33,283 nt of DNA, taken from positions 1 to 33,283 of IMG/VR virus record IMGVR_UViG_3300023184_002385; one strand, given 5' to 3'. Below, one piece after another: positions 6,729-14,949 of the stretch. Origin of the DNA: a virus. Under the pieces are notes generated by a model, which saw nothing but the letters and a program-made list of their open reading frames with translations, did no database searches and had not been told where the DNA came from. Within the stretch, counting starts at the first letter, position 1. Each line of letters opens with the position of its first letter. The translations under genes were made by a program, and so were the position numbers.

Positions 6729-7160
6729 TTAGGAGGTTGTCTTTACGAGAGTTCCACCAGTGAAACTCAAGGTGGTCATTGCCAATTCTCCAACTGCGCC
6801 TGCGACAGGTGTGTGCGAGGCTAGGAAGGTTGTTGACAATGTGTAAAGAGGGTTGGTGGCTGATGTGGATGCGCTAGTTGCTTTAACTGTGACAGTTGTT
6901 GTCGTACCTACGAGTGGGTAAATCAATGCTTCCACACTGGTAGTAGCAGCCCCGGCTGGAATGTTCACAGCGAAGTCTTGCATCAAAGTGATTTCAGCAG
7001 AGTTGTTTTGCAATCCGCCAGAAAACTTATGTCCTGTATCTCCAAAGGCGGTTACTTCAATTGAGTCAATTTCGTAATTTAGTGTCACATTGTTTGATTT
7101 GTCGGATACTGCGGTACCACCGATAGTGACTACTGCGTTAGTGAGTGCGAGGACAGCCAT
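6729..7160 (-). CDS. Major tail (tube) protein, second copy
   Basis: A 143-residue beta-rich protein in the tail-tube position just before the chaperone genes. It is a clear paralogue of the gene immediately upstream: both start MAVLALTNA, share NYEIDSIEVTAFG and the GGLQNNS.EITLMQDFA block, and end in LSFTGGT(L/I)VK-type strands. Compared with the other copy it has an insertion near residue 68 (VNIPAGAATTS). The ATG overlaps the stop of the first copy by one base (TAATG). Tube subunits polymerise into the tail. Whether both copies enter the tube, or one is a specialised variant, cannot be told from sequence. Confidence 0.85.
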   Translation of the reverse strand: MAVLALTNAVVTIGGTAVSDKSNNVTLNYEIDSIEVTAFGDTGHKFSGGLQNNSAEITLMQDFAVNIPAGAATTSVEALIYPLVGTTTTVTVKATSASTSATNPLYTLSTTFLASHTPVAGAVGELAMTTLSFTGGTLVKTTS

Positions 7161-7567
7161 TATGCAACTGCCTTAACAATGGTTCCGCCTGTGAATGTAA
7201 GGCTTGTTGTTGCCAACTCGCCTACGCCACCAGCGACTGGAGTGTGAGATGCAAGGAAAGCATTGGAGATTGTGTATGAAGGGTTAGTAGCCCCAACTGC
7301 AGATGAAGTTGGCTTGATGACCAGTGTGGTTGTAGTTCCTACGAGTGGGTACACAGTTGCTTCAACATTAGAAGTTGCAAAGTCTTGCATCAAAGTAATC
7401 TCAACGCTGTTGTTCTGTAATCCGCCAGCGAAGGTGTGACCACCACTTCCGAATGCGGTCACTTCAATTGAATCAATTTCGTAATTGACCGTGACATTAT
7501 TGGCATGGTCAGATAGCGCAACACTGTTAATTGTGATTGTTGCATTGGTTAGTGCGAGGACAGCCAT
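7160..7567 (-). CDS. Major tail (tube) protein, first copy
   Basis: A 135-residue paralogue of the next gene, with the same N-terminus MAVLALTNA and the same NYEIDSIEVTAFG, GGLQNNSVEITLMQDFA and GTTTTLVIKPTS segments. The size and beta-rich makeup fit a siphovirus tail-tube subunit. It is preceded by a 54-residue gene at 7576-7740 and by the tail-completion gene, the expected order. Both copies look intact, with no stop or frameshift, so both are probably expressed from the same message. Confidence 0.85.
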   Translation of the reverse strand: MAVLALTNATITINSVALSDHANNVTVNYEIDSIEVTAFGSGGHTFAGGLQNNSVEITLMQDFATSNVEATVYPLVGTTTTLVIKPTSSAVGATNPSYTISNAFLASHTPVAGGVGELATTSLTFTGGTIVKAVA

Positions 7568-9022: not shown

Positions 9023-10321
9023 CTAGAAGGTTGGTGTGATTAACCCTGTGCCGTTGATTTGTGCCCATGCATTTGGGTAACGGTTAGCAGTGAAAGTGCT
9101 ATATCCGTAGACAATCATGGTGATATCTAGTTCGGCAGCCTTTGGTTGCTCAAAGCGAAGCATCATTGGCTCGCCCGAACCTTCTTCCCAAAGGTGCAAC
9201 TCTTGCGTGTTGCCGATGTAGATGGTGTCTTGGTCTGTACCAGCACCCTTATTCACAGCAACGGTTGCGTCTGTGTATACAGGCAATCCGAGAATGCTGT
9301 ATCCAGAGTTTCCGTACTGCACTGCACCTGAACCATAAGCGTATGCAGGCTGACCTGAAGACGATGGTGTTGGTACTGCAAGTGGGCGTGACTGACCATC
9401 AACAGCAGCAAGAATCATTCCGAGACGGCGTGGATGCATGATGATGACATTAGGGCCAGCAAAGAAAGTTGTCTGTACCTTCTGAATCGCATCAACCAAT
9501 TTCGGATACAACTCTGCAACTGTCGGAGAAGCATCGGTGTATGTCACTGCCTGTCCTGCAGATGCAAAGAGTTCAGCAACAACAGCAGTGTTCAAAACTG
9601 TGTGGTATGAAGAAACAAGGTCTGCCATAACAAGTGAGTCAATATTAGTGCCACGCTCTAAAGCCTGACGAGAAACATTCTGCTGACCAGCATATGTCTT
9701 GACGGTGAGGTCAAGTTTTGTATCGTCCATGTCTGTTTCCTGAACAGCGGAACCTTCAGTCTGCAATGCAGTTGCTGAACCAGTAGTTACCTTGCTGATA
9801 CTGAGTGTCAAGCCTTCGGCTGGAAGTTGATGCTTGCGAGCGAGGTCTGCTGTTACACGACCTGCACGAGCAAACGGAGCAGCCAAATCGGTTAGGAACT
9901 GAGGAACCATAAGACCAGCAAATGCTGCTGATGTCACATCACGGCGTTCAACTCTTTCTTCCTGCATGTGGCGAGCAAGGCGCTCTTGTGCAGAATAGTC
10001 ATTGTTGAACTGTGCTGAATAAGCATCACGAATAAACGAGGTTGGTGCTTGTGGTGAGTATGTGCGGGCTTCTGATTTGATAACTGCCGGCTTGATGCCT
10101 GCATTCTCTCGTGCTTCGGCAGCCTGCTTTGAACGCTCAGCGAGTTCTTCTTGCTGTGCGATAGAAGCATCAAGGTCACGAACTTGCGTAAGTGCATCGG
10201 TTACTTCTGTGTCTTCGGCAGGCGTGAGGTCACGGTTTTCCTGCTCGGCTAGTTGAACGAAAGACTCTGCTTTAGTAACAAGAGCCTCACGCTTTTCATG
10301 GAGATTTGTCAAGTATGACAT
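9023..10321 (-). CDS. Major capsid protein (HK97 fold)
   Basis: A 432-residue protein following the prohead protease, as in HK97-type phages. The first ~90 residues are a heptad-rich helical segment (HEKREALVTKAESFVQLAEQ, DLDASIAQQEELAERSKQ), the delta domain that the protease usually removes. The body has family features: the AGLMVPQFLTDL entry strand, VTTGSATALQTEGSAV, the LDLTVKTYAGQQNVSRQALE beta-hinge and spine region, and NVIIMHPRRLGMI. It ends with the ITMIVYGYSTFTANRYPNA strand. It forms the icosahedral shell. The ribosome site AGAAGGAATTACCC precedes the ATG. An 84-base gap separates it from the protease, and a hairpin follows it at 8970-9009. Confidence 0.93.
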   Translation of the reverse strand: MSYLTNLHEKREALVTKAESFVQLAEQENRDLTPAEDTEVTDALTQVRDLDASIAQQEELAERSKQAAEARENAGIKPAVIKSEARTYSPQAPTSFIRDAYSAQFNNDYSAQERLARHMQEERVERRDVTSAAFAGLMVPQFLTDLAAPFARAGRVTADLARKHQLPAEGLTLSISKVTTGSATALQTEGSAVQETDMDDTKLDLTVKTYAGQQNVSRQALERGTNIDSLVMADLVSSYHTVLNTAVVAELFASAGQAVTYTDASPTVAELYPKLVDAIQKVQTTFFAGPNVIIMHPRRLGMILAAVDGQSRPLAVPTPSSSGQPAYAYGSGAVQYGNSGYSILGLPVYTDATVAVNKGAGTDQDTIYIGNTQELHLWEEGSGEPMMLRFEQPKAAELDITMIVYGYSTFTANRYPNAWAQINGTGLITPTF

Positions 10322-10405: not shown

Positions 10406-11863
10406 TTATTTGGTTCGTGCGATAGCAACTTGTTGTCGGCGCAAGCGAGTTACAGCACTAGGCGCAGTGTAATGCATCTTTCGTAGTTCCGCAATAGTTT
10501 CCTCGTAGGCGGGATAAGTCACTACCGACACATCATAAAGTTGTACTTCACGCAGTTGTCGCACGGAACGGTCTGTATTCCAACTGTCCTTAATAGTCCT
10601 AAAGGCGAAAGACATTTGGTTTAAGTCCCCTCTGCGAAGGGCAGACATAATCTGTTGTGCTAAAGGGTTGGCAGGGTCTAGTTCTGCTTCTACTTTTAGT
10701 CCTCGTGAATCTTCGCTTAGACGCAAAGTGCCTGATTTGGTTCGGGCAAGTGGAGCACCATCATGGTCAAATAGCAAACGAACATCAGCACCGTCTTTAA
10801 GAGTCTTGGTGAATGCACCCCTTGTTACATATTCTGTGAAGCCGAGGTCTTGAGAAGGTGTATCCCACATTGCTGCATACCCAACAAGGGTGTTGCCAGT
10901 TGCATCAGAACGAACTTCAAGATTTGAATAGGCTATTGAGCGCTTGTCATCTACGGAACGGCTAACCCATTCAATTGTGTTACTGCGAGTGGCTACAACA
11001 TCAAGTGAAGCCTTGAGTTGCCAATCCCATTTTTGATGTCGGTCAATTCGCTCTGCAAGGAAGTTCGCAATGCCTTGTTCATCTGTTTCGTCAGCAACTT
11101 CAAAAGTATTACGCAAGCACATAAGTATTTGGGTGTTGCCGAGAAGCAACGCTGTGGCTAAAGCGGAAGTTGTATCTGCAGGTGCGGTCTGTCGTACCGA
11201 ACTCATAGACAAAAAATCTTGAAGCATGAACGGCGCTTCTCCACCAAGTTTGCGAATGTTCTCAGCAATAGGGTCAATAGACCCGTAAATGTCTTCGTAA
11301 ATCTCTGCAAACAATTCATGGTATTGAGCGAAGTCCGTGCCTCTTACATTCCAATGCGAACCATGCGCTTGAAAATAAAGGGAAACTGCATCGGACAATA
11401 GTTCCCTAAGCCCATCTACCAAAGAGTAAGTCGGCATGGGTTCTTCCACATCAACTTCTGCTTCGGTTACTGGTTCTACAACTGATTCAACTATATCCAT
11501 AAGTGCTCCTCGTTCGGCTTCTTTGTCAAAGTTATCCACTACTCTAATCGCATATTCCATCGCTCGTTGCGCATCTTGCTTAGATGGCCCTGAACCCCAA
11601 AGTAGATGAGCAACTAATCCTGCGCCCGGATACCCACTATCGTTTGGGTCTTTATTTTTGGGTGCATCTAAATCAACTAAATGCCTTGCTATCCAAGGGG
11701 CTATCTTGCGCCATTTTTCTATTGATACTTCACCGTTAGCCATTTTACGAGCAGATGCAATTGTCGCTTCAACTAGTCCATCTCCGCCGTAGCCGTCTGC
11801 ATTGAGTTTTAACCCACGCTTTGCAGCGTTTCGCATATAAGTAGGCGGAGTAAGGTTTGCCAT
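10406..11863 (-). CDS. Dps-like ferritin fused to HK97-type prohead protease
   Basis: This single 485-residue frame holds three parts. Residues 1-115 form a helical phage domain (GYGGDGLVEATI, WIARHLVDLDAP, SGYPGAGLVAHLLWG) seen in other phage head proteins. After an acidic linker, residues 146-288 read as a Dps/ferritin subunit: FQAHGSHWNVRGTDFAQYHE, then SIDPIAENIRKLGG and DFLSMSSV. The Dps ferroxidase ligands correspond to His170, His182, Asp197 and Glu201; the fifth (Asp67 in E. coli Dps) is Ala186, with Glu187 beside it. Residues 300-465 are an S78-type prohead protease (GYAAMWDTPS, TRGAFTKTL, LLFDHDGAPLART, QMSFAFR, DVSVVTYPAY), with His367 and Ser418 as likely catalytic residues. The protease trims capsid and scaffold during maturation. 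The role of the Dps part is unknown: iron or DNA binding inside the head is possible. No stop or frame change interrupts the gene. Confidence 0.9.
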   Translation of the reverse strand: MANLTPPTYMRNAAKRGLKLNADGYGGDGLVEATIASARKMANGEVSIEKWRKIAPWIARHLVDLDAPKNKDPNDSGYPGAGLVAHLLWGSGPSKQDAQRAMEYAIRVVDNFDKEAERGALMDIVESVVEPVTEAEVDVEEPMPTYSLVDGLRELLSDAVSLYFQAHGSHWNVRGTDFAQYHELFAEIYEDIYGSIDPIAENIRKLGGEAPFMLQDFLSMSSVRQTAPADTTSALATALLLGNTQILMCLRNTFEVADETDEQGIANFLAERIDRHQKWDWQLKASLDVVATRSNTIEWVSRSVDDKRSIAYSNLEVRSDATGNTLVGYAAMWDTPSQDLGFTEYVTRGAFTKTLKDGADVRLLFDHDGAPLARTKSGTLRLSEDSRGLKVEAELDPANPLAQQIMSALRRGDLNQMSFAFRTIKDSWNTDRSVRQLREVQLYDVSVVTYPAYEETIAELRKMHYTAPSAVTRLRRQQVAIARTK

Positions 11864-12117
11864 TAATCCACGCTTGGTGTAAGGACACGCATAGTTTGCG
11901 TACCCGAACTTGTAATGCCATAAATAGTTTCGTTAAACGGAACGCTTATTGCAAGTGTCGTTCCATTGGATAAATGTATGCCTGTAGATGCGGTTACATC
12001 CGAACCACCGATATATACAGAACCACTTCCCGAATGTAAATAACAAATGCGTGGTTGATTATCGGCATCAATTAACAGCGTTGCTGATGTTGTGATAGTT
12101 ACGGCAGAAGTTTTCAT
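11863..12117 (-). CDS. Small beta-rich head-region protein
   Basis: An 84-residue protein between portal and protease, with 1- and 4-base overlaps with its neighbours, so it is translationally coupled. The whole chain is beta-prone (VTITTSATLLIDADNQPRIC, GSGSVYIGGSDVTASTGIHL, ETIYGITSSGTQTMRVL). Short proteins with the same 'VYIGG.DVT...G..L..G..L' pattern occur in many phage head modules and sometimes within capsid decoration or fibre proteins. A virion decoration role is a guess; no specific motif decides it. Confidence 0.7.
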   Translation of the reverse strand: MKTSAVTITTSATLLIDADNQPRICYLHSGSGSVYIGGSDVTASTGIHLSNGTTLAISVPFNETIYGITSSGTQTMRVLTPSVD

Positions 12118-13295
12118 GCTGGTAAATCCGTAATACTGCTTGCCATAGGGGGCAAAGCGTCTACGCCGATTGCTGTTCCTACTTGACCGTAATAGAAGTT
12201 GTCGCCACCTTCGTACGGCTCTCGCCCTTCTGATGCTCGTGCTTCGTTCGGGGACAATGTTCCTGTTTGAATCTGAATCTGTTGAGCCATAACTCTTGAG
12301 TTCAAATCTCCACGCATCAAACCATCAGCATTTAGTCGTACTCGTTGTGGTGTAGGCAACATAGAACTAAGCGTGTCTTCTAGTCGGTGCATCCAAGGGA
12401 GCAAAGTGTGACGAACAAAGTTGATACCAGCGGACTCCACATTTTGATAAGTCTGATTGTCTCCGCCTGTGCCAGCAATGAGGTGTAAAGGGATTCTATA
12501 CGCTCTTGCAATATCCCGAACAATAGATTCACGATGTTCCATTGTGTCCATATCTGATGCAGATGCTGTGACTGAACGCCACTTTAACCCACCAGCGAGA
12601 ACTGCAGGTCTGCGCCTTTTCCAATGTGCATCTTCCCAAGTGGTGCGTAGAATTTCTGCTTGTTCCATTGTCACTTGCTGGTCTGTTTCTAACACTGATG
12701 AAGGTGTCGCTCCATCTCCGTAGAACTGTGCAAGGAAGCGGTCAATAGCAATTCCCGTTCCAATAATGTTTCGCATTGCATCAAGTGGTGAAACGCCGTA
12801 AGCCTGATTAGGGAAACGAAGCCACGAGATGTGATACATAGATTCAAAGTCAATCACTGTTTTGTTGTACGAATAAACACGATTACCGTTATCGCCCACA
12901 ACAACATTGACTAATAGCGGGTGAAGGCAACGCATCTCAAGAGGTGCTCCGCCTGCGTTGCGAGGTGCATAAATAAAAGCGTTGCCGTGAAGTGCAAGAG
13001 TTGCAATTGTTTGGTGAATAAACTCAAACATATTTTGGTCATCGTTAGGTTTCACAAACACGCTCGGAACTGGTAGTTCTTCTAGAGTTCCTTTGTTGTC
13101 ACGATAAACCTGCAAAGGCATTGTGGCTATTGAATCTGCCAATAGTGTGACGGCAGACAATACAGCGGTAGACGAGACTGCTGTGCGTTCAGTAACGATT
13201 TCGCCTGAATAGTTTTGAAACTGAGGGCGAGCCGAGATTTGGTTTACATCTACCGTAATTGGTAGCGAACGAACTTCTCGTCTAATAATGCTCAT
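12114..13295 (-). CDS. Portal protein (HK97 type)
   Basis: A 393-residue protein starting at the ATG at 13293-13295 (MSIIRREVRS), which overlaps the upstream stop as ATGA. A longer reading to 13358 is possible but would swallow most of the 45-residue gene upstream. Family features: the N-terminal SSTAVLSAVTLLADSIATMP helix, PLQVYR, EFIHQTIATLALHGNAFIY, MRCLHPLLVNVVV, DMDTMEHRESIVRDIARAYR and IPLHLIAGTGGDNQTYQNVE. It forms the dodecameric DNA entry ring and docks terminase. It lies just downstream of the large terminase gene, the standard order. Confidence 0.93.
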   Translation of the reverse strand: MSIIRREVRSLPITVDVNQISARPQFQNYSGEIVTERTAVSSTAVLSAVTLLADSIATMPLQVYRDNKGTLEELPVPSVFVKPNDDQNMFEFIHQTIATLALHGNAFIYAPRNAGGAPLEMRCLHPLLVNVVVGDNGNRVYSYNKTVIDFESMYHISWLRFPNQAYGVSPLDAMRNIIGTGIAIDRFLAQFYGDGATPSSVLETDQQVTMEQAEILRTTWEDAHWKRRRPAVLAGGLKWRSVTASASDMDTMEHRESIVRDIARAYRIPLHLIAGTGGDNQTYQNVESAGINFVRHTLLPWMHRLEDTLSSMLPTPQRVRLNADGLMRGDLNSRVMAQQIQIQTGTLSPNEARASEGREPYEGGDNFYYGQVGTAIGVDALPPMASSITDLPA

Positions 13296-13429
13296 GCTGA
13301 AAATGCTCCGCCCGTGATTAGAAGTGCTCCCGTAACAATAAACCCTAATGGCATCCAAATCATGAATGCTCCGATTGACACGAGAATAGCACCTAATACT
13401 TCAACTGTGGATGTGATGTTTTGTCTCAT
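13292..13429 (-). CDS. Small membrane protein between terminase and portal
   Basis: A 45-residue frame from the ATG at 13427-13429 to the TGA at 13292-13294. After MRQNITSTVEV it is almost wholly hydrophobic (LGAILVSIGAFMIWMPLGF, then VTGALLITGG), giving one or two membrane segments. It starts 5 bases after the terminase stop, and its TGA overlaps the portal ATG (ATGA). Filling the gap exactly with coupled overlaps argues that it is real. Function unknown. Confidence 0.75.
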   Translation of the reverse strand: MRQNITSTVEVLGAILVSIGAFMIWMPLGFIVTGALLITGGAFSA

Positions 13430-13434
13430 AACTT

Positions 13435-14949
13435 TTACCAAACTGGAACGACGCTAGGGCCATTGTAGCCTTCTGGTCTGCGTGTCGCTCGGTCTAACGC
13501 AATGACCATTGCAATACAAGCGTCAATCTTTCGGTGGCTTTTACCTTTACTTAGCCGCCAGCCAGTATCAGTCATTCGTTGTGCTGCTGATAGCACTTGG
13601 TCTGTGAAAACTGGAGAACCGTTATGCACCACTTTGTTGTTGATGATGAGTTCGTATGTGTGACCGCAGGCTGGAATCATGCGCTGACTACTTTGTGGGT
13701 ACTCAACCATCGGAAGCCCATCATCTATAAGGATTTCTGCAGAACGCTGAAAATATGCAGGGTCGTAGGCGAACTCTTTAATATTGTACTTCAAATGTAT
13801 TTCCCGAAGGTAATGCTCAATGGATGCCACATCCACAGCCTTTTCAGATGGGTGCCATATTTTGGCTGTGACAGCAACCTTGTCCCCTTGAGGCTGTGCC
13901 ATTACTACAGCGATGCTGTCGTGCTTCAACGCCATGTCAATGCCAACCCAAGTTTCTAAATCAGGGTCAATCTCTACTTCGCCCACTAGCCGTTCCCATG
14001 CGCCTGCAGGGAGCCAACTTTCTTCTGCTCGTACCCATTGGTTCAATCGGAATCTACGGAATGCCATTTCGCTTGACTGCCGTGCAGATGTTTCAAGGTC
14101 GTCTTCGTCTATGAGTTTGGAAGCCAAGTTAGGATTGCACTGTTCCCACACACTCCTATCTGTGATGGAACAATCAGCAGGTGCTTCCCACCAAAAGAAA
14201 CCGAAGTTCTCGTCTACTTCATCTCCTTGAGCAACAGCCTTGCCGTAGTCGTACAACCTTCCGCAAAGAGTGTTGATGTCATAACCTGCTGTAGTAATTG
14301 AAACAATCATTGGGTCTACACGAGCACCCGAACCCAATGTCAATTGGTCATACAAGTCATCGTTCCTCTGCACCCATAGTTCGTCAAAGATAACTAAAGA
14401 AGGGTTTAGACCAGCCTGTGATTTAGCGTCAGCGGATAGCACCCGATACACAGAGTTAAACGCTGGAACCTCAATAGCGTCACGGTAAACCTTGCAGTGA
14501 GCAGATAGGACTGGAGACTTAACTACTTGTTCCCGAGCCTCGTTGAATACAATGCGAGCCTGCTTTCTGTCTCCAGCAGCGGAGTACACTTCTGCACCTG
14601 CTTCACCAGCGAACAAACCATAAAGCGCAAGGGCTGAACCCATTAGGGATTTGCCTTGCTTTCTTGGCAGTCCAATAACTGCACGGCGATAACGCAAGCG
14701 GTTATTGTCTCGGCGTTCAAGCAAAGCTTTTAATAGCCACTGTTGCCATTCCACAAACTCTAAAGGCTGACCTGCTCTTACGCCTTTGGAAACTCTCAAC
14801 CATTGATAAGCAAAGTCAATAACATCGTCACCATCTGAAGCGTTGCTGTGGCGTTTAGTGAAGTAGGTCGGTTCCCATTCCTTTTTAGGCAGAAGCCCTT
14901 TTAACTGCGATGCGGTCACGGAAGTCTTGGATTGCGTCATTGGAGACAT
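13435..14949 (-). CDS. Terminase large subunit
   Basis: A 504-residue packaging motor and nuclease. Walker A is GLPRKQGKS (residues 93-101) and Walker B is LVIFDE (185-190), followed by the ITTAGYD coupling segment. The C-terminal nuclease domain has the first Asp in WVGIDMALKHD (Asp338), AYDPAYF (about residue 395), and KIDACIAMVIALDRA near the end. The size is normal for the Terminase_1/HK97 group. The chosen ATG at 14947-14949 overlaps the small subunit gene by 65 bases, more than elsewhere in this genome, so the true start could be an internal ATG at 14938-14940 or a GTG further in. It cuts and pumps DNA at the portal. Confidence 0.95.
   Translation of the reverse strand: MSPMTQSKTSVTASQLKGLLPKKEWEPTYFTKRHSNASDGDDVIDFAYQWLRVSKGVRAGQPLEFVEWQQWLLKALLERRDNNRLRYRRAVIGLPRKQGKSLMGSALALYGLFAGEAGAEVYSAAGDRKQARIVFNEAREQVVKSPVLSAHCKVYRDAIEVPAFNSVYRVLSADAKSQAGLNPSLVIFDELWVQRNDDLYDQLTLGSGARVDPMIVSITTAGYDINTLCGRLYDYGKAVAQGDEVDENFGFFWWEAPADCSITDRSVWEQCNPNLASKLIDEDDLETSARQSSEMAFRRFRLNQWVRAEESWLPAGAWERLVGEVEIDPDLETWVGIDMALKHDSIAVVMAQPQGDKVAVTAKIWHPSEKAVDVASIEHYLREIHLKYNIKEFAYDPAYFQRSAEILIDDGLPMVEYPQSSQRMIPACGHTYELIINNKVVHNGSPVFTDQVLSAAQRMTDTGWRLSKGKSHRKIDACIAMVIALDRATRRPEGYNGPSVVPVW

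Follow-up and report, generated by a model that had tools for sequence, protein, structure and literature searches.

The window, that is, the whole stretch of DNA analyzed here, is a viral record 33,283 bases long, with the gene order terminase large subunit (TerL), portal, an 84-aa open reading frame (ORF), the fusion gene under study, major capsid protein, head-tail connector, and tail genes. The fusion gene, read on the minus strand, is a 485-aa ORF (11863-10406) starting with an ATG at 11863, which overlaps the 3' end of the small 84-aa ORF, and its stop codon ends at 10406. Its place between the portal and major capsid genes is the one expected of an S78 prohead protease gene. The features of the region are as follows:

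13435..14949, minus strand: terminase large subunit (PF03354 and PF20441; phrog_9)
12114..13358, minus strand: portal protein, upstream of the fusion (PF04860, E 2.6e-75)
11863..12117, minus strand: 84-aa ORF separating portal and fusion, retained in locus L099, without family match
10406..11863, minus strand: whole fusion gene, N-terminal domain, Dps, and S78 prohead protease, 485 aa (open frame, Pfam PF00210 and PF04586, AlphaFold2)
11528..11863, minus strand: N-terminal all-helical domain, residues 1-112, phrog_2859-like (E 8e-8; pLDDT 91)
11429..11527, minus strand: acidic linker, residues 113-145 (2 K/R, 11 D/E), its second half of low confidence in the model
11000..11428, minus strand: Dps-type ferritin domain, residues 146-288 (PF00210, PDB sequence and fold matches, ligands)
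10946..10999, minus strand: flexible linker joining Dps to the protease, residues 289-306, putative release site (pLDDT <50)
10475..10945, minus strand: S78 prohead protease domain, residues 307-463 (PF04586, E 1.7e-45; phrog_80, E 4.9e-54)
9023..10321, minus strand: major capsid protein, directly downstream of the fusion (phrog_2263, E 7.8e-49)

Elsewhere on the minus strand of the window, the adjacent genes at 6729-7160 and 7160-7567 both matched the major tail protein family phrog_4574. In the segment 15641-23950, a PAPS-reductase-like gene has a ParB-N-domain gene on either side; a cupin gene is also present, as are adjoining genes for an amidoligase and a glutamine amidotransferase.

The original prediction, made from the letters alone, had described one uninterrupted frame with a complete Dps domain and an S78 prohead protease in its C-terminal part, and the three statements were borne out. 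The 485 codons contain no internal stop, the ferritin/Dps family PF00210 matched residues 150-288 (E 1.1e-15, well above the curated cutoff), and PF04586 matched residues 314-463 with 155.6 bits versus a cutoff of 21. In the S78 domain, His367 and Ser418 were invariant in 17 sequences and are presumed, from this conservation, to be the catalytic pair. A phmmer comparison with PDB sequences gave 55 distinct matches, all between residues 135 and 296 of the fusion and nearly all to Dps or ferritin-like proteins or to constructs derived from these, with Pseudomonas aeruginosa PA0962 (8ff9, E 1.9e-19) at the top; no solved structure akin in sequence to the S78 protease of the window was found. The GC content of the Dps segment (0.448) was similar to that of its flanks (0.458 and 0.463), without a break. 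The fusion of a Dps domain with a head protease in the window was confirmed as real.

An AlphaFold2 model of the fusion as a monomer, built from a 17-sequence alignment, reached a mean pLDDT of 76 and a pTM of 0.36, the latter too low to fix the mutual packing of the domains. The Dps part was modeled as helices A (148-170), B (178-205), BC (214-220), C (232-259), and D (263-286), that is, a four-helix bundle with the BC helix characteristic of the Dps family and without a fifth helix, and the bundle whose absence would have counted against the original prediction is thus present. All 50 matches listed by Foldseek against the PDB were Dps-type proteins, the best of them with target-normalized TM scores of 0.86-0.88 and an rmsd of about 2 Å over about 141 columns. 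The modeled protease was beta-rich at 309-448 with helices on either side, and low-confidence flexible segments were present at 125-144 and 289-306. The N-terminal domain modeled alone was well defined (pTM 0.84) and is conserved in relatives; its sole family match was phrog_2859, a family of unknown function. A known fold for this domain was rejected, as both the sequence and the fold search of the PDB were empty, and Pfam gave no match. Its putative head association, stated in the original prediction, is based on the recurrence of the domain in head-protease genes.

The ferroxidase residues named in the original prediction were all as described: His170, His182, Asp197, and Glu201, with Ala186 in the fifth position and Glu187 next to it. 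The first four were invariant in cluster representatives, both viral (61/61) and cellular (62/62). The fifth acid position, occupied by Ala186 in the window, was Glu in 19 of 61 viral versus 51 of 62 cellular representatives. In many viral members, as in the window, the acid is found at 187 rather than 186, and only 8 of the 61 viral representatives lacked an acid at both positions. The Ala186/Glu187 arrangement noted in the original prediction is thus a trait of the clade, and because the fifth acid is absent, we claim a Dps fold and not a full canonical ferroxidase site. The fused Dps domains were acidic, with a median net charge of -13 in the core and mostly acidic flanks with a median of about -5 on each side. 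No basic DNA-binding tail was found in the window, and the flanks were acidic in the window and in most fused members; this combination argues against DNA binding and weakens the earlier suggestion that a Dps cargo might bind DNA. An iron or oxidation role appears more likely than DNA binding, despite the loss of the fifth ligand.

In the lineage to which the protease of the window belongs, the position of the Dps domain is a variable slot, since DUF5824, a HAD phosphatase, nothing, or a split between genes was observed at the same place in relatives. The closest protease relatives, L001 and L002, with 90% identity in the best segment, lack Dps; their hinge is occupied by DUF5824, and in other relatives the hinge was empty. 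L104 carries a HAD phosphatase alone at the protease hinge. Many relatives encode the S78 protease in a gene of its own, next to a second gene that encodes the N-terminal domain, alone or together with DUF5824. Locus L099, which comes from another sample and was found by the profile scan, showed the same synteny of portal, 84-aa ORF, fusion, and capsid; its fusion is composed of N-terminal domains, HAD phosphatase, Dps, and S78, with 61% identity to the window in Dps and 74% in S78. Most relatives of the window's protease are without Dps, and the domain is therefore dispensable in that lineage. The hinge phosphatases match PF03767 (HAD/acid-phosphatase-like) in L104:2812-4374, where the domain stands alone, and in L099:2788-4893, where it lies ahead of Dps. 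A four-Cys region resembling high-potential iron-sulfur proteins was observed in the N-terminus of head proteases of two relatives (L001:3593-5407, residues 75-117; L017:3809-5260, residues 67-111) as a weak PF01355 match (E 0.09 and 0.014, respectively); it is absent from the window.

The fusion was found repeatedly in other phages. Two scans with viral Dps alignments, of which the best 80 of 280 and the best 80 of 527 relatives were kept, yielded together with other viral loci and three contigs of metagenome-assembled genomes (MAGs) 61 clusters at 85% identity of the Dps domain. At least 16 Dps clusters were fused to a head protease (17 domain clusters when the tandem Dps of L097 is counted). 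A head protease was identified in the same ORF by Pfam or PHROGs in L217, L244/L198, L210, L251, L238, L236/L239, L252, L256, L257, L235, L213, L097, L032, L094, L099, and the window, the assignments for L028/L094, L236, L252, and L032 being weak in Pfam and resting largely on PHROGs. The domain order varied, with the protease C-terminal to Dps in some fusions and N-terminal in others, and the proteases fell into phrog_80, phrog_9427 (XkdF-like), phrog_859/18402, and phrog_3270. A further scan with the S78 sequences of five Dps-fused proteins related to L217, from an S78 lineage other than that of the window, kept 80 contigs, of which 66 had Dps and S78 in one ORF, 8 had complete ORFs without Dps, and 6 had incomplete ORFs; the fusion was present in 16 of the 22 S78 clusters (formed at 90%) of the analyzed sample, figures that demonstrate recurrence and not true frequency because similarity ranking, the choice of queries, and near-duplicate contigs bias the counts. 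Among GTDB genomes, the closest matches were the three MAG contigs L255-L257 at 44-45% identity, with the other listed matches at ≤35%, and L256 and L257 carry the S78 fusion. The searches made found no Dps-protease fusion in cultured phages, where Dps occurred only as separate genes. The fusion is a recurrent architecture of uncultured phages, extended here from one gene; its uniqueness to the window was rejected, and so was an assembly chimera, as the join recurs in other contigs and the GC content has no break. The possibility of an assembly join, raised in the original prediction, was answered by this recurrence.

Several variants were observed beside the typical fusions. The ORF at L097:1584-6713 (1710 aa) is open at the end of the locus and encodes an S78 protease at its N-terminus as well as two tandem Dps domains. 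L253:5581-7974 joins Dps to a Zeta-toxin-like kinase domain, and the protein has a match to a minor head protein family. At about the place of Dps, six Dps-less head proteases of the L217 lineage (L346, L355, L358, L374, L390, and L409) contain a short helical module (MAADASIDAAQ...YYLICAADLALDPVI-like). UniProt already contains large phage proteins named for Dps (for example, A0A6J5N5R9, 679 aa; A0A6J5RFH1, 622 aa).

The genomic context of the viral Dps clade was of two kinds. In L217, L244, and L210 the fused gene has the portal gene on one side and the major capsid gene on the other; of these two neighbors, the portal is seen in L256 and the capsid gene in L257. In eight records, other clade members sit closely after the portal match, and three of these (G029, G032, and G034) are Dps-DUF5824 proteins. 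In L206 and L231 a standalone Dps gene adjoins the gene for a head maturation protease, and in L245 one follows a capsid gene. The largest standalone group (L184, L200, L220, and related loci) was found among genes for replication initiation and helicase loading; the clade is therefore not exclusively a head component, and the assumption that standalone viral Dps genes always belong to the head module was rejected. This location suggests a second, non-structural use. The Dps genes of this group are often on the strand opposite to their neighbors.

A quick tree built for 61 viral and 25 cellular Dps representatives, based on few columns and with many unresolved forks, placed the viral Dps on one side of a branch with an SH-aLRT of 98; fusion to a head protease, as a label on this tree, required 7 changes. 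The differences in domain order and protease family are stronger evidence than the tree for repeated joining. In the L217 fused cluster, the median dN/dS (Nei-Gojobori) of Dps (0.09) was close to that of the N-terminal domain (0.087) and below that of S78 (0.16); by these estimates the constraint on the Dps part is no weaker than that on the protease, and purifying selection on it is strong.

Among cultured phages, the S78 protease gp6 of the Pontimonas phage phiPsal1 shares with the window the protease domain, the order of portal, protease, and capsid genes, and the N-terminal domain, but phiPsal1 and the other cultured phages found have a protease without Dps. Standalone phage Dps proteins (phrog_3636; Gratiaviridae, Lactobacillus phages, Salmonella phage 7-11, and cyanophage S-SRM01) also provide a phage-encoded Dps fold, and the four metal ligands are common to the viral Dps clade studied here; unlike the fusion, they are encoded by separate small genes that are not joined to a protease, and they have been proposed to aid the host (PMC8008677; PMC6669764). 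Encapsulins hold ferritin-like cargo within an HK97-fold shell, and the IMEF cargo resembles Dps (PMC11202242; PMC6668986). The likeness to the window lies in the pairing of a ferritin-like protein with an HK97-fold shell and is a comparison of working, not of membership: the encapsulin cargo is a protein of its own that carries a targeting peptide and resides in a compartment free of DNA, whereas in the window the domain is fused to the protease of a DNA-packaging tailed phage. The nearest concept is that of the polyvalent proteins of phages and conjugative elements, multi-domain proteins of the packaging module that are thought to be packaged and some of which are processed by a built-in peptidase (PMC5512222); the fusion is multi-domain and located in the head module, and would correspond to this concept if packaged. 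The main text of that paper mentions neither Dps nor ferritin, and "prohead" occurs once, in the title of a reference. No published fusion of Dps with a head protease was found in the limited set of journal papers searched. The earlier statement that no such system had been described thus stood within that literature, while the fusion proved to be common in uncultured phages and not unique to this gene.

S78 proteases enter the procapsid, where they process themselves and head proteins. The gene product would be the precursor of a head maturation protease whose middle part is a variable cargo slot, occupied here by a Dps-type ferritin. Since the fusion would enter the procapsid as S78 proteases do, the Dps domain would end up within the shell, where it would probably be cut free at the flexible linkers. 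The freed Dps, either in the shell or after ejection with the DNA, may bind and oxidize iron or consume peroxide, and this chemistry, suggested by the conserved metal ligands, may protect the packaged or incoming genome. We assign a probability of about 0.5 to this reading, in which Dps is a swappable cargo domain that the protease brings into the procapsid and whose probable function is iron or peroxide chemistry. Carriage into the procapsid, already envisaged in the original prediction, is plausible in view of the recurrence, synteny, purifying selection, and ligand conservation. Points against cargo are the loss of the fifth acid, which the window and most of the clade lack, the replication-gene context of the largest standalone group, and the many relatives of the window's protease that do without Dps.

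The main rival is a role in assembly. Dps folds normally assemble as dimers and 12-mers, and such oligomers could gather copies of the protease and of the N-terminal domain into a core or scaffold for procapsid formation, with the metal serving only to stabilize the fold. The tandem Dps pair of L097 and the acceptance of other helical modules in the slot speak for such a module; its metal ligands, however, are invariant across divergent members and are not obviously needed by a pure scaffold, many close relatives assemble without Dps, and the slot can be occupied by a HAD phosphatase instead. We regard assembly as a possible but doubtful explanation, and as it is not exclusive of the cargo role, both can hold. 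A further rival is that the Dps domain binds and compacts DNA in the head, as E. coli Dps does in the cell, and PHROGs labels phrog_3636 as a DNA binding protein; with the net charge of the fused cores and flanks described above and the basic tail missing, such binding and compaction appear very improbable.

The Dps domain might also act in the infected cell, if the precursor were cut early or overproduced and free Dps shielded the host or replicating DNA from oxidation. This would fit the related standalone genes among replication genes and the host protection proposed for phage Dps (PMC8008677; PMC6669764), but a standalone gene would suit such a function better than a late-gene fusion, and the repeated joining to head proteases and the position between portal and capsid genes point to the head, which makes action in the cell unlikely. 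An assembly artifact or a passing, non-functional join has a negligible chance of being correct and is already refuted for the architecture: although exactly this sequence was seen in one contig only, L099 from another sample has the same join, dozens of other contigs contain it, the GC content runs through it evenly, and the Dps part of the fused cluster shows strong purifying selection. Delivery of Dps as a cargo by the protease is the reading preferred here.

Head maturation proteases are usually regarded as single-purpose and consumed during assembly. In the phages described here, the protease gene behaves like a carrier whose variable slot contains a Dps ferritin in some and a phosphatase, DUF5824, or another module in others. 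We tentatively propose, at somewhat below even odds, that these phages are a viral counterpart of ferritin-loaded encapsulins, with the protease as cargo carrier with an exchangeable slot and many of them loading a Dps-type ferroxidase into the virion for iron or peroxide detoxification around the genome or for ejection into the host. If Dps stays in the virion, the phages would carry their own protection against iron and oxidation into the environment or the host, and an HK97-fold shell paired with a ferritin-like cargo would, if true, be a viral parallel to encapsulins.
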